DNA from: a virus
IMG/VR virus record: IMGVR_UViG_3300037296_000148
Span: 1 to 31,157 of that record
Reading direction: 5' to 3' (one strand)
Length of the DNA: 31,157 nucleotides
This document shows positions 2,834 to 31,157 of this stretch, piece by piece. The notes below the pieces were generated by a model, which saw only the letters and a program-made list of their open reading frames with translations, did no database searches and was not told the DNA's origin. A program made the translations under genes and the position numbers. How positions within the stretch are numbered: the first letter of the stretch is position 1; the number at the start of each line of letters is the position of its first letter.

Positions 2834-2912
2834 CGCATGATGAGCAGGCCCCAATTGGGAGTCACAGGCGCAATCATGCAGCTTGTCAAGCACAGACGAC
2901 GAGGACGATATC

Positions 2913-4121
2913 ATGACGAACTACACAAACAGCGACGACGAGCTGAAGACATTCAAGACGGCGGACATCCGCGGGCTTCTGCCGCTGATGGGCTGGCACG
3001 TAGTGAGCCAGGCCGAAGCTGCGCGGGTTGACAAGCACCGCACTAAGCCGGGCTATTGCTTCACAAACGGGTCGCAGTTCATGAACGTATCACTTAGCAA
3101 CCAGGGTGACGGAACCTGGATGTGGTTCTCTGTGACCGGCTACATTTGCGGTAAAGCACACGGAACAATTATTGATATTGCGAAAGATCATGTGGGTGGC
3201 AACTTCGGCAAAGCCCGCGTCTTCTTGCGTGAAGCTCTGTCTATCTCCCGGCCCTCTACCCCCGTCCCCTCTGCCGCCGCCACCAATACCACTCCTCTCC
3301 AGAATCCTTCTGCAGTTGTGTGTTCCACCCGCCCCCTTCCTGCCCCCGTAGAGATCGACGAAAAGAAAACGCCGGACCAGCTTGAAGCTGAATACCGCGC
3401 TTTGTCGACAAGCATCAAAGCCGGCAAAGCTAAGCACTCTTTGTTTACGACCCGCGGCATCGATCTTGTTGACGATACGTTCAGCTACGCAATGCGCGAG
3501 ATGAACAACCACAGCGGTTACGTTTTTCCGTATTATAATTTTAATGAAGGATCTAACGGCATTTCGTTTGCTGGCTACGAGATCAAAAAAGAGAATGGCT
3601 TTAAGCAATATGCAAAAGGCGGCCGCGCCGGATTCTGGATCGGCGGGGACGTTGAGACGTCGACCGTCATCGTCTGCGAGAGCCCGCTCGACGCGATGGC
3701 ACATTCGATCATCACGCAATCCGGTGCGCTCTACGTCGCCGTGCGCAGCGGCTCTGAGGCTGACGTCGTGCGATTCATCGCACACAAGTTCAAGCGCGGC
3801 TACGCCGGTCACGTCAGGCTTGCGTGCGATCACGACGCCGCCGGATATGGTTACGTCAATAAGATCTGGTCCGGCATTGACCGCCTCGGCTTGAAAGCTG
3901 AAGGCATCGTTGTCACGCAAGAGAACCCGTTGAATGGTGAAAACGATCACTGCGACGTCTTGAAGAAGATCGTCAATATCAGAGATGATGAAAACGGTAA
4001 GGCCGCGCGGAACTACATGCGCACCCGCATTGCTGAACTGCAAGAAGATGCGCGCCGCATTGAGATGCCATTCCGCGAGACAGTGACGTTTCAGCAAGCG
4101 AGCGCAGAACTTGCGATGTAG
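2913..4121 (+). CDS. Toprim-domain primase-like protein
   Basis: This 402-residue protein is probably the phage primase or a primase-like replication factor. The N-terminal part contains a degenerate zinc-finger-like segment (TGYICGKAHGTIIDIAK, 75-91), reminiscent of CHC2 primase fingers. After a Pro/Ala-rich linker (about 110-147) comes a Toprim domain: VCESPLDAMA with E256, then ACDHDAAG with D306 and D308, and a later NDHCDVLKK resembling the KDxND tail of Toprim_2 proteins. ATG at 2913 is chosen over TTG at 2883 because GAGGA sits 7 bases upstream. Its place between terminase and connector genes is unusual; the only other replication gene seen is the VapE helicase at 27820. The linker is encoded by the dispersed pyrimidine repeat. 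Confidence 0.8.
   Translation: MTNYTNSDDELKTFKTADIRGLLPLMGWHVVSQAEAARVDKHRTKPGYCFTNGSQFMNVSLSNQGDGTWMWFSVTGYICGKAHGTIIDIAKDHVGGNFGKARVFLREALSISRPSTPVPSAAATNTTPLQNPSAVVCSTRPLPAPVEIDEKKTPDQLEAEYRALSTSIKAGKAKHSLFTTRGIDLVDDTFSYAMREMNNHSGYVFPYYNFNEGSNGISFAGYEIKKENGFKQYAKGGRAGFWIGGDVETSTVIVCESPLDAMAHSIITQSGALYVAVRSGSEADVVRFIAHKFKRGYAGHVRLACDHDAAGYGYVNKIWSGIDRLGLKAEGIVVTQENPLNGENDHCDVLKKIVNIRDDENGKAARNYMRTRIAELQEDARRIEMPFRETVTFQQASAELAM
3313..3347 (+). repeat. Dispersed pyrimidine-rich repeat, copy A (inside Toprim gene)
   Basis: This copy begins CAGTTGTGTGTTCCACC and ends in CCGCCCCCTTCCTGCCC-type sequence. It shares nearly every base with the copy at 10998-11035 and lies inside a longer C/T-rich stretch (3241-3350). 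It encodes part of the Pro-rich linker of the Toprim protein and lacks one T relative to the other copies. Confidence 0.75.
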
Positions 4122-23842: not shown

Positions 23843-24289
23843 TCACCAGATTTCGCATGAAATCAATTTATTTTCGTAGCGCGCGCCGGGCAAGTCATAG
23901 ATCCCGGGGTGGCCGCCGCAGGCATGGGCGCGCTCACAGATCATCAGCATGACGTAATTCACAAGCTCATCGTAGCGAGGTTGCCGGATCACAGAAACAT
24001 GCGCTTTATGGACGTCTACAGTGATGCACGGCTTACGCGGATCTCGAAGGGTGCCGGTCGCGTCTGGCACATCGAAGTCAAGGTCACCATTTTTCGCAAT
24101 GAAGAACTGGAACGTGTATCGATTGCGGTGCAGTAAGACGCCGGCGGCGGTCTGGGCCGCTTCGTGGATCATGGAGTGGAATTGATCAGCGATGCCGAAG
24201 AACAGTTTTTGATTCAAGGCCTCGGCTTCTTCATAGACGTCGTGGACGCCGGGCACGGGGATTTCTAAGTAGTCAGCGCGGATCATCAT
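23843..24289 (-). CDS. Early protein, unknown
   Basis: A 148-residue protein with no recognised family. It has an acidic N-terminal helix (HDVYEEAEALNQKLFFGIADQFHSMIHEAAQTAAG), a strand pair (RYTFQFFIAKNGDLDFDV), a second pair (PCITVDVHKAHVSVIRQ) and a helix with LVNYVMLMICERAHACGG. The alpha-beta layout could be an enzyme or inhibitor fold, but no catalytic motif stands out. Two ATGs in tandem (24289, 24286) follow GAGGATAAC, so the second has the better spacing. The upstream gap has tandem 10-base repeats and a hairpin. Confidence 0.55.
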   Translation of the reverse strand: MMIRADYLEIPVPGVHDVYEEAEALNQKLFFGIADQFHSMIHEAAQTAAGVLLHRNRYTFQFFIAKNGDLDFDVPDATGTLRDPRKPCITVDVHKAHVSVIRQPRYDELVNYVMLMICERAHACGGHPGIYDLPGARYENKLISCEIW

Positions 24290-25301: not shown

Positions 25302-25511
25302 TCAGCTGGCAGTGATGGACTGATACGCGAGTCGAGTAGGCTTCTGGATCTCGTTGGAAAAAGGTTCGCGACGCATGATGCCGCGGGTCTCGGCAGCTTT
25401 GGCTTCATCGACAGACACGAAGCGGCGGTTGCCGTCGGCATCGATGACGTATGCGGAGCGCTCGTTGGTGTAAGGCTTGCGAGCGAACTGGATATCGTTG
25501 CGGTTCGTCAT
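25302..25511 (-). CDS. Small early protein, unknown
   Basis: A 69-residue basic protein: MTNRNDIQFARKPYTNERSA, then a short hairpin-like core (YVIDADGNRRFVSVDEAKAAE) and a basic tail. The function is unknown; its size and its place as the first gene after the divergent control region suggest an early regulator, antirepressor or host-takeover protein. AGGA lies upstream of ATG 25511. A TTGTAGACAA palindrome (25556-25565) lies about 45 bases upstream. Confidence 0.55.
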   Translation of the reverse strand: MTNRNDIQFARKPYTNERSAYVIDADGNRRFVSVDEAKAAETRGIMRREPFSNEIQKPTRLAYQSITAS

Positions 25512-25806
25512 CGTGTATTCCTTCGGGGTTCAGGCTTCGCATGATTGCTCGGCTCTTGTAGACAAATGGGTATCAAACTGGACATCACAAGGGGCAGGCA
25601 CAAAAAAAAGTGCCCCCTGGCCACTTTTTTTTCCGCACATTAGTTCCGGCGCACGCTGCTATCTGGCAACACTACTTCGCCAGTCTCGTCTCATGATGAT
25701 ATGTTGTAATTTCTTTTTCCTATTCCGATTGACGCCATGCGAAATATTAGACAACTATCTCATCATGTGGACACGAATGTGTCTTGATCAAGTCAGGAGC
25801 TTAAAA
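25512..25806. promoter_or_regulatory. Divergent control region with A/T hairpin
   Basis: No gene lies here. The region separates a leftward gene from the rightward helix-turn-helix gene. It holds TTGTAGACAA (25556-25565), a CTGGACATC element (25578-25586), an 11-base inverted repeat AAAAAAAAGTG/CACTTTTTTTT (25602-25632), and a minus-strand GTGTCCACATG (25764-25774) that resembles the shared TTGTCCAC motif. A TTGACG (25729-25734) lies 71 bases before the GTG start of the rightward gene. Confidence 0.55.
25602..25632. terminator. A8/T8 hairpin
   Basis: AAAAAAAAGTG (25602-25612) and CACTTTTTTTT (25622-25632) pair perfectly around a 9-base C-rich loop. Each strand has a T-tract at its 3' side, so it can act as a terminator in both directions. 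It sits upstream of both flanking genes, where it would block read-through. Confidence 0.55.
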
Positions 25807-26397
25807 GTGGATGGAAAACAAGTGGAGCAGCGGCTCCAGGCCCTGGTGGGCACCGGGGCAAAGGGTTGGCAGTCACAAGCTGCGGATCTTCTCGACGTGT
25901 CGCAGCGCACAATCGCGCGCAACATCGCAACGCCCACGCATGAGTTCCTCAAACGCTTGGCGCAATATGATACGGAGTTCGGCATGATGCCACTTGATGC
26001 CATGGCCGCCGGTGCCCGTGACTGGATTATCGGACATTCAGCAGCCGAAGTTGACACGACTGACATCTTCCTCACGCACTTGCCGAAGCCCACGTTTTTT
26101 GTGCGTGCATCGCGCAGCATTGATGACGTCGGACTTTACGTGACTTGGCTGGACGCGCCTACGCCTGACCAGTCGCGAGAGCTCTTAGCTGAAGCGAAGA
26201 AGATCGTCATGGACTTCATCGACAACCCGGACCGGACGATGGATGCGGATGACATCGCAAAAGCGGTCATTGCAAGCGGAAAGCCTGCAAATCAAAGTGC
26301 GCCGATTTTAAAGCTAATTGCAGAAAGCCGGACGGAAAAGCTGGCAGAGGTCATGCGCATGCTCAAGTTGTATAAGTATAACCCGCCGCCACGCTGA
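25807..26397 (+). CDS. Helix-turn-helix regulator
   Basis: A 196-residue protein beginning at GTG 25807 with AGGAG 7 bases upstream. WQSQAADLLDVSQRTIARNIATP (about residues 23-45) has the form of a helix-turn-helix. The middle contains TDIFLTHLPKPTFFVRASRS and the C-terminal part is helical (QSRELLAEAKKIVMDFIDNPDRTM). It is the only rightward gene in a long leftward region, and the shared TTGTCCAC-like motif lies in its control region, so it could be the regulator that reads that motif. The end overlaps a convergent gene by 35 bases. Family not identified. Confidence 0.7.
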   Translation: MDGKQVEQRLQALVGTGAKGWQSQAADLLDVSQRTIARNIATPTHEFLKRLAQYDTEFGMMPLDAMAAGARDWIIGHSAAEVDTTDIFLTHLPKPTFFVRASRSIDDVGLYVTWLDAPTPDQSRELLAEAKKIVMDFIDNPDRTMDADDIAKAVIASGKPANQSAPILKLIAESRTEKLAEVMRMLKLYKYNPPPR

Positions 26398-27819: not shown

Positions 27820-29535
27820 TCAGAACGGGGCGTCGTTCATCGCCTCTTCCAGCAACTTCTGGAAGTCTTTCGAATTGAACTGAAGGTCGTGGATCAGACC
27901 GCGGATGCCGTGACGGTTCAGGTTTTTCGACGTCTTCGTGAGATATCCAGTGCGGCTTGCGGCTTCTCCCATATCAGCAACTTCGCGACCTTTGTAAGCG
28001 TCCGGTGGGTTACCGGTCGCGTTGTTGTAGAGCGACTTCAGATTGAAGCTGGACTCGACAGAGTAATGATCACCGCCATGCTTGAAGTTGTGATACAGTT
28101 GCGGGTCGCGCTTGCCTGGCTGGATCGTGTTCAGAATGTATTGATCGATTGCGTTCTTCATTACGTCAGCGCTGTCTTCAGTGCGGCGGCCGCTGTAAAG
28201 CGTCTCTGCATACTCTTCCGCTTCGGGTGACAAAGAGAGGTTCAGAGAACCGTCGGGCTCTGCAGACGTGCGCAGCATCTCGTGATAGATATGTTCAGCT
28301 TCGGCCCAGACTTGATCAATGATGCTGTCAAGCTTCGCAATATCGATGCGCTGCCGCTCTTTCAGGCCGATAAGGATTGGCCAAAAACGGCGGTTGTTGT
28401 TCGGGTCCGTCAGATAGTCCATCTTGTCTGCCGTTCCGGCTGCAATGAAACCCCGGTAGTATGTGCGTGTGCAGTTTCCGTAAGCGAGGCGCACGCTGTC
28501 TTCGTCTTGCGTCAGAAGGCCTTTGATGCGCTTGCTAGAGTGACCTGTGAACGCCTCCATCTCGGCGAACTCGACAACGTGAAGGTGCTTTGTCGCCTCC
28601 ACCCACTTTTCCAGGCTATCAATATTAAAGCTGGAAACGTTTCCGTGAAACCCGCGGCCAAGCTTTTTCACAAAAAGCGACTTCGACTGACCGCCCTTCT
28701 GACCACCATCAAAGACTACCATGTGGTCAAACTTGGTGCCGGGGTTTTCCATGCGCATCACGCCCGCAACGAACCACTTGATGGCCGTTTCGCGATGGTA
28801 GAGATTATCTTCTGCACCCAGCATATCGATCCAGAAAGTCGATAGACGCTCGACGCCGTCCCATTCAAACTGTGCGAAGAGGTCTTTGAGTGGATTGAAC
28901 TTGTTCTTGTCAGCTGCCATTTTCAGCGCAGACCTGATTACCTTGGCGTCCGGCGACATGCCGTAGCCGCCGATCGACTGTGGCGCGGAGAGCAAGCCCT
29001 CCAGCAGCGCGAAGAAGGCTTCATCGAAAGGGCGCATGCGTCCGCGCTCCAGTTCGAGTTTCGGAAAACCCGCGATGCGCGTATCGAAGTCACAGCACAT
29101 TTGCTCTGTATTAGTGAACTCATTGTGTGCGATCAGTCTTGTGAAACGCGGATCGTTCGTCATGATCTGGAAGACGTTGTTGACAGTCGGCTTGATCTCA
29201 CCAGAGCGAGGTGCGGTATCCATGTTCAAGCGCCATTCGCCATGGATTGCGGCAAACATGGCTTCGTCGCTGTCAAAACCATCATCAAGCAGATCATCGA
29301 TGTTGGGCAGTTCGGCAACGCCGTTGATCTCTTCGATCTGCGCAAGTGGCGCAACATCTGAAAAGGTCAGCGCGAAATTGTCGTTGTTCTCTATCGATGG
29401 CAGGACGTCAGCCACGATATCGTTGATCATCTCAGCTGTCGCAGGGGTGCCGCTCAAGTCATCATTGATACGGACCATTTCGGTTGTGTCGATCGTCGTC
29501 GCATCGTTCTCATGCGCGCTTGCTGTGTTCGTCAT
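27820..29535 (-). CDS. VapE-type replicative helicase/primase
   Basis: A 571-residue protein of the virulence-associated E (VapE) type, probable superfamily 3-like helicase. Visible are a P-loop GGQKGGQSKS (277-286), a Walker B VVEFAEME (320-327), an RTYYRGFIAAGTADK segment and the FLTDP-type YLTDPNNNRRFWPI (374-387) arginine region that typifies the family. The N-terminal third is acidic and variable. It would unwind the origin and move the fork, with the Toprim protein as partner. ATG 29535 has GAGGA 7 bases upstream; a longer start at 29664 would include untranslated iterons. The origin-like region lies directly upstream. Confidence 0.9.
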   Translation of the reverse strand: MTNTASAHENDATTIDTTEMVRINDDLSGTPATAEMINDIVADVLPSIENNDNFALTFSDVAPLAQIEEINGVAELPNIDDLLDDGFDSDEAMFAAIHGEWRLNMDTAPRSGEIKPTVNNVFQIMTNDPRFTRLIAHNEFTNTEQMCCDFDTRIAGFPKLELERGRMRPFDEAFFALLEGLLSAPQSIGGYGMSPDAKVIRSALKMAADKNKFNPLKDLFAQFEWDGVERLSTFWIDMLGAEDNLYHRETAIKWFVAGVMRMENPGTKFDHMVVFDGGQKGGQSKSLFVKKLGRGFHGNVSSFNIDSLEKWVEATKHLHVVEFAEMEAFTGHSSKRIKGLLTQDEDSVRLAYGNCTRTYYRGFIAAGTADKMDYLTDPNNNRRFWPILIGLKERQRIDIAKLDSIIDQVWAEAEHIYHEMLRTSAEPDGSLNLSLSPEAEEYAETLYSGRRTEDSADVMKNAIDQYILNTIQPGKRDPQLYHNFKHGGDHYSVESSFNLKSLYNNATGNPPDAYKGREVADMGEAASRTGYLTKTSKNLNRHGIRGLIHDLQFNSKDFQKLLEEAMNDAPF

Positions 29536-29575
29536 CTTCGTATCCTCGTGTGTTGTGTCGTTGTGACAGAACCGA

Positions 29576-29609
29576 AATATACACGACATCTGATAAAACA
29601 AGTGGACAA
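29576..29609 (-). promoter_or_regulatory. Helicase promoter with TTGTCC motif
   Basis: On the minus strand TTGTCCACTTGTT (29609-29597) and TATATT (29581-29576), 22 bases after TTGTCC. The 13-base motif is identical to that at 2821-2833 upstream of the Toprim gene. TATATT lies 40 bases before ATG 29535. Iterons begin within 5 bases of it. Confidence 0.65.
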
Positions 29610-29800
29610 ATTGCGTTTCCAACGATGATTTTTTCGTTTCCAACGTTTCCGCGCGGTAACCCACTGTAAACGCACGTTATTTTTCTATATTGGAAACGGC
29701 ATATTTCTCATTTCCAACGATAATACATTGCAACCTGCTGATTTTAAACACTTTTCACTCGAAATTGGAAATGGGAGCATTGGAAACGGGGTTTAGCCCC

Positions 29801-29840
29801 CAGTTGAAGAGGGGAAGGATGGGGGTGGGTGGAATATAAG
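29801..29840 (+). repeat. Dispersed repeat, inverted copy F
   Basis: CAGTTGAAGAGGGGAAGG then ATGGGGGTGGGTGGAATATAAG. It is the G-strand version of the pyrimidine repeat and shares GGTGGAATATAAG with 22378-22390. With copy E it makes an inverted pair inside the origin region. Confidence 0.55.
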
Positions 29841-29982
29841 AATTTACTACAAAAGTATGGTTTCTTCTCTTCTCATTTCCAATAATGCTCTTTCAGCTAT
29901 AAAAATAAGGGGTTTGGTCTTGGAAATGGGGTTGGAAATGGGCTGGAAATGGGCTGGAAACGGAAACGTCATTTCCACCGGC

Positions 29983-30012
29983 TTGTCGTATTCCACCCGC
30001 CCCCTTCCCTAC
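29983..30012 (+). repeat. Dispersed pyrimidine-rich repeat, copy E
   Basis: TTGTCGTATTCCACCCGCC then CCCTTCCCTACC. It aligns with copies A-D from the TTCCACCCGCCC core onward. Confidence 0.65.
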
Positions 30013-30060
30013 CATCTGGCCGAAGGCCGTCCACGACGCTGGAAACGTTGGAAACGTGCG

Positions 30061-30118
30061 CTTGCGAAAAATGGTAGAACAGTTGTGATATATAAGACGT
30101 AACGGCCGCGCCAGCGGC
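30061..30118 (+). promoter_or_regulatory. Rightward promoter-like region and leader hairpin
   Basis: A TATATA box (30089-30094) precedes the 30124 gene; TTGCGA lies 21 bases before it (30062-30067). The leader holds a perfect GGCCGC/GCGGCC hairpin (30103-30118) with a 4-base loop, immediately before the start. It could drive the packaging operon across the window join. Confidence 0.5.
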
Positions 30119-30123
30119 CATCC

Positions 30124-30435
30124 ATGACACGGGTCTACGGCATGCCAAAGCAGCGCGCGGGTATTAAATCGGTCACGAAAGATCAGCGCCGGAAGGTGCT
30201 GACGATGTTGCTTGCAGGCGCAAGCCGCACGTCTGTGACGATGGAGTTGGGCTGGACGGCGAAGAAGCTTAGCGAAGTCAGCAAAGAGCTCTGCGCATCG
30301 AATATCGATATTAGCAGCATTGACGATGTAAATGCACGCGTGCGCGACTGCGTTACTTGTGCAGAGCCATTCGCATCGCACCACCGCGGGCACCGCATGT
30401 GCAACTACTGCAAGTATGAAGCGGAGCAAGTATAA
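30124..30435 (+). CDS. Zinc-ribbon helix-turn-helix regulator
   Basis: A 103-residue basic protein. The N-terminal half looks like a helix-turn-helix (KDQRRKVLTMLLAGASRTSVTMELGWTAKKLSEV, about 19-52). The C-terminal part has C-VTC (residues 75 and 78) and MCNYC (92 and 95) around a His/Arg loop, a likely zinc ribbon of the kind seen in GcrA-like and phage regulators. It may control transcription of the late genes downstream. The start codon lacks a good ribosome-binding site; ATG 30142 is an alternative. It ends in a TAATG overlap with the next gene. Confidence 0.65.
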   Translation: MTRVYGMPKQRAGIKSVTKDQRRKVLTMLLAGASRTSVTMELGWTAKKLSEVSKELCASNIDISSIDDVNARVRDCVTCAEPFASHHRGHRMCNYCKYEAEQV

Positions 30436-31073: not shown

Positions 31074-31157
31074 AAAATTATATGCACTTGAAAAATAACG
31101 CAGAAAATTCACGGGTCCTCCTGCACCCCCCCCACCCTATGAGGTGGTTCTGACAAG
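31074..31157 (+). other. Intergenic stretch upstream of terminase, cos candidate
   Basis: The last 84 bases, joined to bases 1-70, make a non-coding stretch before the small terminase gene, where cos is usually found. It contains a run of eight Cs and a CCACC/GGTGG hairpin (31132-31147), then the 14-base terminal repeat. A/T-rich bases 31076-31110 may be a protein site. Confidence 0.5.
31144..31157. repeat. Terminal direct repeat, right copy
   Basis: Identical to bases 1-14. See the left copy. Confidence 0.85.

Follow-up and report, generated by a model that had tools for sequence, protein, structure and literature searches.

A putative iteron origin of replication 5′ of the VapE helicase gene in a temperate phage

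How does a phage begin to copy its DNA when no initiator gene is evident next to its helicase gene? This question is raised by the virus record IMGVR_UViG_3300037296_000148, whose entire length of 31,157 bases is the window analyzed here. An earlier note on this DNA had described 14 TTGGAAAYG iterons beside a VapE helicase gene, had taken them for an origin of replication and had stated that no Rep-type initiator gene was visible.

Bases 1-14 and 31144-31157 of the window are identical (both GTGGTTCTGACAAG), and because of this direct terminal repeat the genome is probably circular and essentially complete with a length of about 31.14 kb. Judged from its genes, which include a tyrosine integrase, TerS, a gpA-type TerL, portal and capsid-protease genes, the virus, a small one of marine-type bacteria, is a temperate phage. 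Among the best TerL matches are CRP-406 and related Roseobacter phages, with about 34% identity.

A dense iteron array in a divergent intergenic region

The array comprises ten exact copies of TTGGAAAYG and four copies in which the first base alone is altered (starting at 29943, 29954, 29970, and 30039), and the sites are found in both orientations. Fourteen of the 15 copies of the core TGGAAAYG present in the genome fall into 443 bp. When 300 shuffles under a dinucleotide model were inspected, the richest 443-bp stretch held two copies and a whole genome contained 2.4 copies on average, confirming that the density of the motif is far above chance. To the left (29614-29788) and to the right (29920-30056) of an AT-rich stretch the iterons form two groups, and one further iteron falls into the stretch itself (Table 1). 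The phased central group pointed out in the earlier note is present as well, at the start of the right group. Likewise the cluster proved to be gene-free: the intergenic region 29536-30123, flanked by VapE on the minus strand and a 103-aa gene on the plus strand, holds no annotation-quality gene, and an 81-aa open reading frame (29857-30102) is coded by the iterons and is not of such quality either. Also the palindrome noticed near 28630 within the helicase gene was recovered; post hoc, it may be considered a possible extra site.

Table 1. Features of the putative origin and of other parts of the phage genome
Feature	Position	Strand	Remark
Whole iteron cluster, putative replication origin	29614-30056		14/15 TGGAAAYG; shuffle maximum 2
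Iteron TTGGAAACG	29614-29622	-	
Iteron TTGGAAACG	29635-29643	-	
Half-iteron GGAAACG	29644-29650	-	abuts iteron 29635-29643
Iteron TTGGAAACG	29690-29698	+	
Iteron TTGGAAATG	29709-29717	-	
Iteron TTGGAAATG	29765-29773	+	
Iteron TTGGAAACG	29780-29788	+	
AT-rich stretch, candidate unwinding element	29826-29915		up to 72% AT
Iteron TTGGAAATG	29874-29882	-	within AT-rich stretch
14-bp box ATAAAAATAAGGGG	29899-29912	+	in AT-rich stretch; identical in Loktanella locus
Phased iterons at 29920/29932/29943/29954	29920-29962	+	spacing 12/11/11 bp
Bare GGAAACG	29962-29968	+	
Iteron GTGGAAATG, inverted	29970-29978	-	
Abutting iteron pair CTGGAAACG TTGGAAACG	30039-30056	+	
Palindrome GGAAACGTTTCC, possible extra site	28633-28644		within VapE gene; post hoc
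VapE (PF05272), 571 aa, initiator-helicase homologue by sequence	27820-29535	-	Pfam 178.6 bits; no primase domain
103-aa protein, HTH-like N-terminus and CxxC-x13-CxxC zinc finger	30124-30435	+	divergent from VapE
Toprim_2 protein	2883-4121	+	PF13155, E 1e-4; late gene block
Proteo-phage-1 sRNA, Rfam RF03044	23717-23796	-	51 bits, exceeds gathering score

VapE as a homologue of Rep-type initiator helicases

The VapE reading frame starts with an ATG at 29535 which is preceded by a GAGG Shine-Dalgarno sequence. The protein consists of an AAA+ core (residues about 222-446) followed by a predicted C-terminal winged-helix domain (about 455-553). At the sequence level the staphylococcal PriRep1 in complex with dsDNA (PDB 7pds) is the sole solved relative (E 5e-35). 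An AlphaFold model based on an alignment of 66 sequences (mean pLDDT 83.8) could be superimposed on 7pds over 427 residues spanning 99-564 with a Z score of 33.4, the runner-up entry reaching 15, and the fold match to SaPI5 Rep (7ola) is weaker (Z 14). The winged helix, a predicted fold only, is modeled mostly with a pLDDT of about 88-93, its wing with about 57-76. By sequence and model VapE is hence a homologue of the Rep-type initiator helicases and this includes the C-terminal domain. On this point the earlier note, which saw no Rep-type initiator gene, therefore has to be corrected. A separate Rep- or O-type initiator without helicase activity was not found among the subset of open reading frames scanned.

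VapE does not possess the N-terminal primase part which is present in its phage relatives, and none of the neighboring open reading frames scanned matched a primase domain. By its sequence the Toprim_2 protein is a candidate for a separate primase; its gene sits between TerL and portal, an odd location for a primase. The P-loop of VapE (GGQKGGQSKS, residues 277-286, about 28678-28707) is two residues longer than is usual in the family and has no glycine before the lysine. This is not an error since the P-loop of the Loktanella protein described below (GSREGGQRKS) has conserved the length. Given the elongated P-loop, the ATPase activity of VapE is putative, which counts against our best explanation.

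Conservation of the array

The earlier note had proposed to look for the cluster next to VapE genes in related phages. In the one close relative available, a prophage remnant of Loktanella salsilacus (L353), it is retained, and the loss of the cluster which the note had named as a refutation is not seen there. The VapE protein of this remnant is 40-41% identical over the full length including the C-terminal domain, and nine TGGAAAY sites (L353:4123-4458) are likewise located 5′ of the gene. The 14-bp box of the AT-rich stretch is identical, and the divergent neighbor is homologous to the 103-aa HTH/zinc-finger protein of the phage (33%, E 3e-16). Single-protein scans of viral contigs and genomes with VapE found no relatives, which were reached by alignment-based scans alone; single-protein scans with the HTH/zinc-finger protein did not find relatives either. 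A scan of viral contigs yielded no further members of the phage-Loktanella clade. By eye, L353:10036-10638 and L353:10798-11268 appear to encode homologues of the phage open reading frames 25477-26397 and 23843-24289, transposase-like genes are close by, and a fragment of TerL (69% over 49 aa) is located on another contig.

A DNA search of phage records totaling 2.3 Gb gave a single convincing match to this region, Roseobacter phage CRP-406 (E 3e-4), whose array is identical to part of the right group (29920-29962 region) at 33 of 35 nt. The CRP-406 helicase is, however, of the Toprim-RepA type with another C-terminal domain and without detectable similarity to VapE, so the word of the array is not diagnostic of VapE. 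The array is situated between the helicase and the minor tail/TerS/TerL side in both genomes, in CRP-406 at the 3′ end of the helicase gene, and the 212-aa gene of our phage (30435-31073) is the counterpart of the CRP-406 minor tail gene by position only. The gpA-type TerL proteins are related (34.6%), and no TerS common to both phages was detected. Three explanations of the shared array can be considered: the independent origin of a similar word in the presence of winged-helix readers, the exchange of a module, and a reader other than the helicase. This complication raises the question of the reader's identity and lowers our confidence in VapE as the sole reader more than our confidence in the origin function.

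The Roseobacter phages CRP-811 (L154:4398-4540) and CRP-831 (L155:3884-4027) carry arrays of ACTACAAA and TGTATAAA, respectively, at the 3′ ends of their helicase genes; the words differ and the RepA-type helicases are very similar. We also observed twelve copies of TGGAAACG with near-mirror-symmetric spacing inside an AEP-TOTE primase gene, in its 3′ end (L141:934-1239), and a cluster of the same word directly after a DUF3987 helicase bearing a C-terminal HTH_23 (L104:1449-1563), the latter on an element of 13.2 kb, the two ends of which code for overlapping stretches of protein. These two clusters were discarded as a sign of a shared reader, being too few cases.

Iteron-like clusters at other VapE genes

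For a broader view 80 viral VapE loci (L168-L247), gathered by the VapE protein alone, were surveyed by comparing the top 8-mer cluster of each locus with shuffles. A significant iteron-like cluster was present in 60 of the 80 loci, always 3′ of VapE (54 within 700 bp) and never on the 5′ side. Six of the 60 clusters lie farther away, and a few (e.g., L174 and L191) resemble coding or simple tandem repeats. Named phage and plasmid loci gave the same picture, with a significant cluster in 11 of 18, each 3′, and a looser test added RcPacific and a Paenibacillus plasmid. Both tests are conservative, since the SaPI-like locus L165 itself scored below the threshold. The 3′ side of our phage VapE has no cluster above chance. 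Leuconostoc vL_291, considered as a second case of 5′ iterons, failed on the looser test. Because all 60 significant clusters lie 3′, the phage-Loktanella clade, with its iterons 5′ in the divergent promoter region, is by sequence a positional variant of the SaPI/PICI-type origin with a self-loading helicase.

The iteron words vary from locus to locus, and the pooled profile resembles TGNNACA. Against the motif obtained by pooling 42 iteron sets of other VapE genes, TTGGAAAYG gave no significant match (p about 0.18), and the idea that it is the plain word of the VapE family was rejected. Broad searches for TGGAAAYG clusters were also abandoned as they returned mostly coding repeats at multiples of 3 bp.

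Proposed mode of initiation and alternative explanations

The stretch 29614-30056 is very probably the start site of phage DNA copying. The iteron origin proposed in the earlier note finds good comparative support in the conservation in Loktanella, the two groups flanking an AT-rich stretch and the 3′ clusters of 60 of the 80 surveyed loci; the GC-skew analysis suggested there gave no support, the skew rising near-monotonically across the genome and being uninformative. The adjacent VapE is likely the protein that recognizes the iterons, if the SaPI systems are a guide. By analogy to the SaPI family we infer the following sequence of events. The C-terminal winged-helix domain of VapE would bind both groups of TTGGAAAYG sites, and the protein, as an AAA+ helicase resembling SaPI Rep, would load itself and assemble on the iterons. 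It would then melt the AT-rich stretch with the ATAAAAATAAGGGG box, and theta replication would start from there with priming left to a separate primase, for which the Toprim protein and host DnaG are possible candidates. To this joint reading we assign a probability of roughly 0.7. Three observations speak against it in addition to the P-loop: the position of the array 5′ of VapE as opposed to 3′ in all significant relatives, the deviation of the iteron word from the pooled profile, and the CRP-406 array beside an unrelated helicase.

The promoter region between VapE and the divergently oriented HTH/zinc-finger/terminase-side genes is filled with iterons, so that binding of VapE may additionally repress its own gene; such autoregulation and any role for the HTH/zinc-finger protein are speculative. 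Going further, one could imagine that in this lineage of Rhodobacterales phages an origin of the SaPI type has been relocated to a divergent control region, where joint reading by VapE and the HTH/zinc-finger protein would couple origin firing, autoregulation, and a late-gene switch, but this we consider doubtful.

An alternative would be that the origin is real and that the HTH/zinc-finger protein reads the iterons, as the initiator or as a loader of VapE in a two-protein system. Its gene is the only other one conserved at the iterons in Loktanella, and the phage-Loktanella clade is the sole clade with this gene at the iterons and also the sole one with 5′ iterons. The zinc finger is accompanied by an HTH-like N-terminus, although the latter stems from a low-confidence model (single-sequence fold, pLDDT 54). 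On the other hand, among other genomes of this bacterial family, zinc-finger relatives of the protein mostly lie where there is no TGGAAAY cluster within about 1.5 kb, which argues against a dedicated reader, VapE retains its predicted winged-helix domain, and in annotated relatives the iterons adjoin VapE without an evident HTH/zinc-finger gene. We therefore regard a two-protein system as unlikely.

The chance is smaller still that the cluster serves chiefly as a set of operators, through which a phage regulator would switch VapE as an early gene and the HTH/zinc-finger, tail, and terminase genes as late ones. It is true that the sites fill the divergent intergenic region, that in Loktanella the genes on either side also point away from each other and that there is a weak promoter-like pair at 29748-29720 on the minus strand. 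However, promoter-like matches are about as numerous in shuffles, 14 sites forming two groups with an AT-rich box between them look like an origin rather than an operator, and VapE relatives have comparable arrays 3′ of the gene, away from its promoter. Finally, a cosB-like packaging site bound by TerS, whose gene lies at a distance of about 1.15 kb if the circle junction is crossed, is highly improbable: the TerL is of the gpA type and the probable circularity given by the 14-bp terminal repeat places TerS downstream of the array, but two genes separate the two, CRP-811 and CRP-831 have their own differing arrays next to helicases and not to TerS, and CRP-406 has the same array yet no shared TerS was detected.

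Initiation by VapE would explain how replication starts in a phage without an O/Rep-type initiator, as VapE is itself a homologue of such an initiator. The survey suggests that a PICI-style 3′ placement of iterons, with one word per locus, is common in VapE-encoding plasmids and full phages; it yields testable pairs of protein and word and points to likely origins in many uncharacterized phages. In the phage-Loktanella clade the origin appears to have been able to switch sides of the helicase gene.

Comparison with known replication systems

In phage P4 the C-terminal domain of a replicative helicase, the alpha protein, reads short iterons in both orientations at ori and crr. The short iterons in both orientations and the helicase C-terminal domain as the putative reader are common to P4 and our phage. 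The alpha protein is a fused primase-helicase, whereas VapE carries no primase domain and is thus not a fusion of the P4 type.

SCCmec Cch2 and SaPI5 Rep are self-loading helicases which bind dsDNA through a C-terminal domain and have a repeat region next to them, as proposed here for VapE, and the isolated C-terminal domain of Cch2 binds its putative origin specifically (PMC7581432). Unlike VapE these proteins belong to the D5/Primase_Cterm family and have the origin downstream of the gene, with only three iterons in the case of Cch2.

Closest are the SaPI/PICI systems. The C-terminal domain of SaPI Rep reads the iterons of an origin which follows immediately after the rep gene (PMC7581432), and in PICI origins two sets of iterons flank an AT-rich region, an organization which was termed unique to PICIs (PMC6092414). 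Our phage differs in being a complete phage and not a satellite, in its word TTGGAAAYG, in the longer P-loop, and in having a Toprim protein instead of an adjacent AEP primase, for which the neighboring open reading frames scanned gave no match. The phage origin would work in a similar way, but because its iterons are not directly 3′ of the rep gene and no fused or adjacent primase was detected, we do not file it as a member of the SaPI/PICI group. It shares with this group, in particular with PriRep1, the homologous helicase with a C-terminal DNA-binding domain (here a predicted fold) and without a primase fused to Rep, the two iteron groups around an AT-rich stretch and the location of the putative origin next to the helicase gene.
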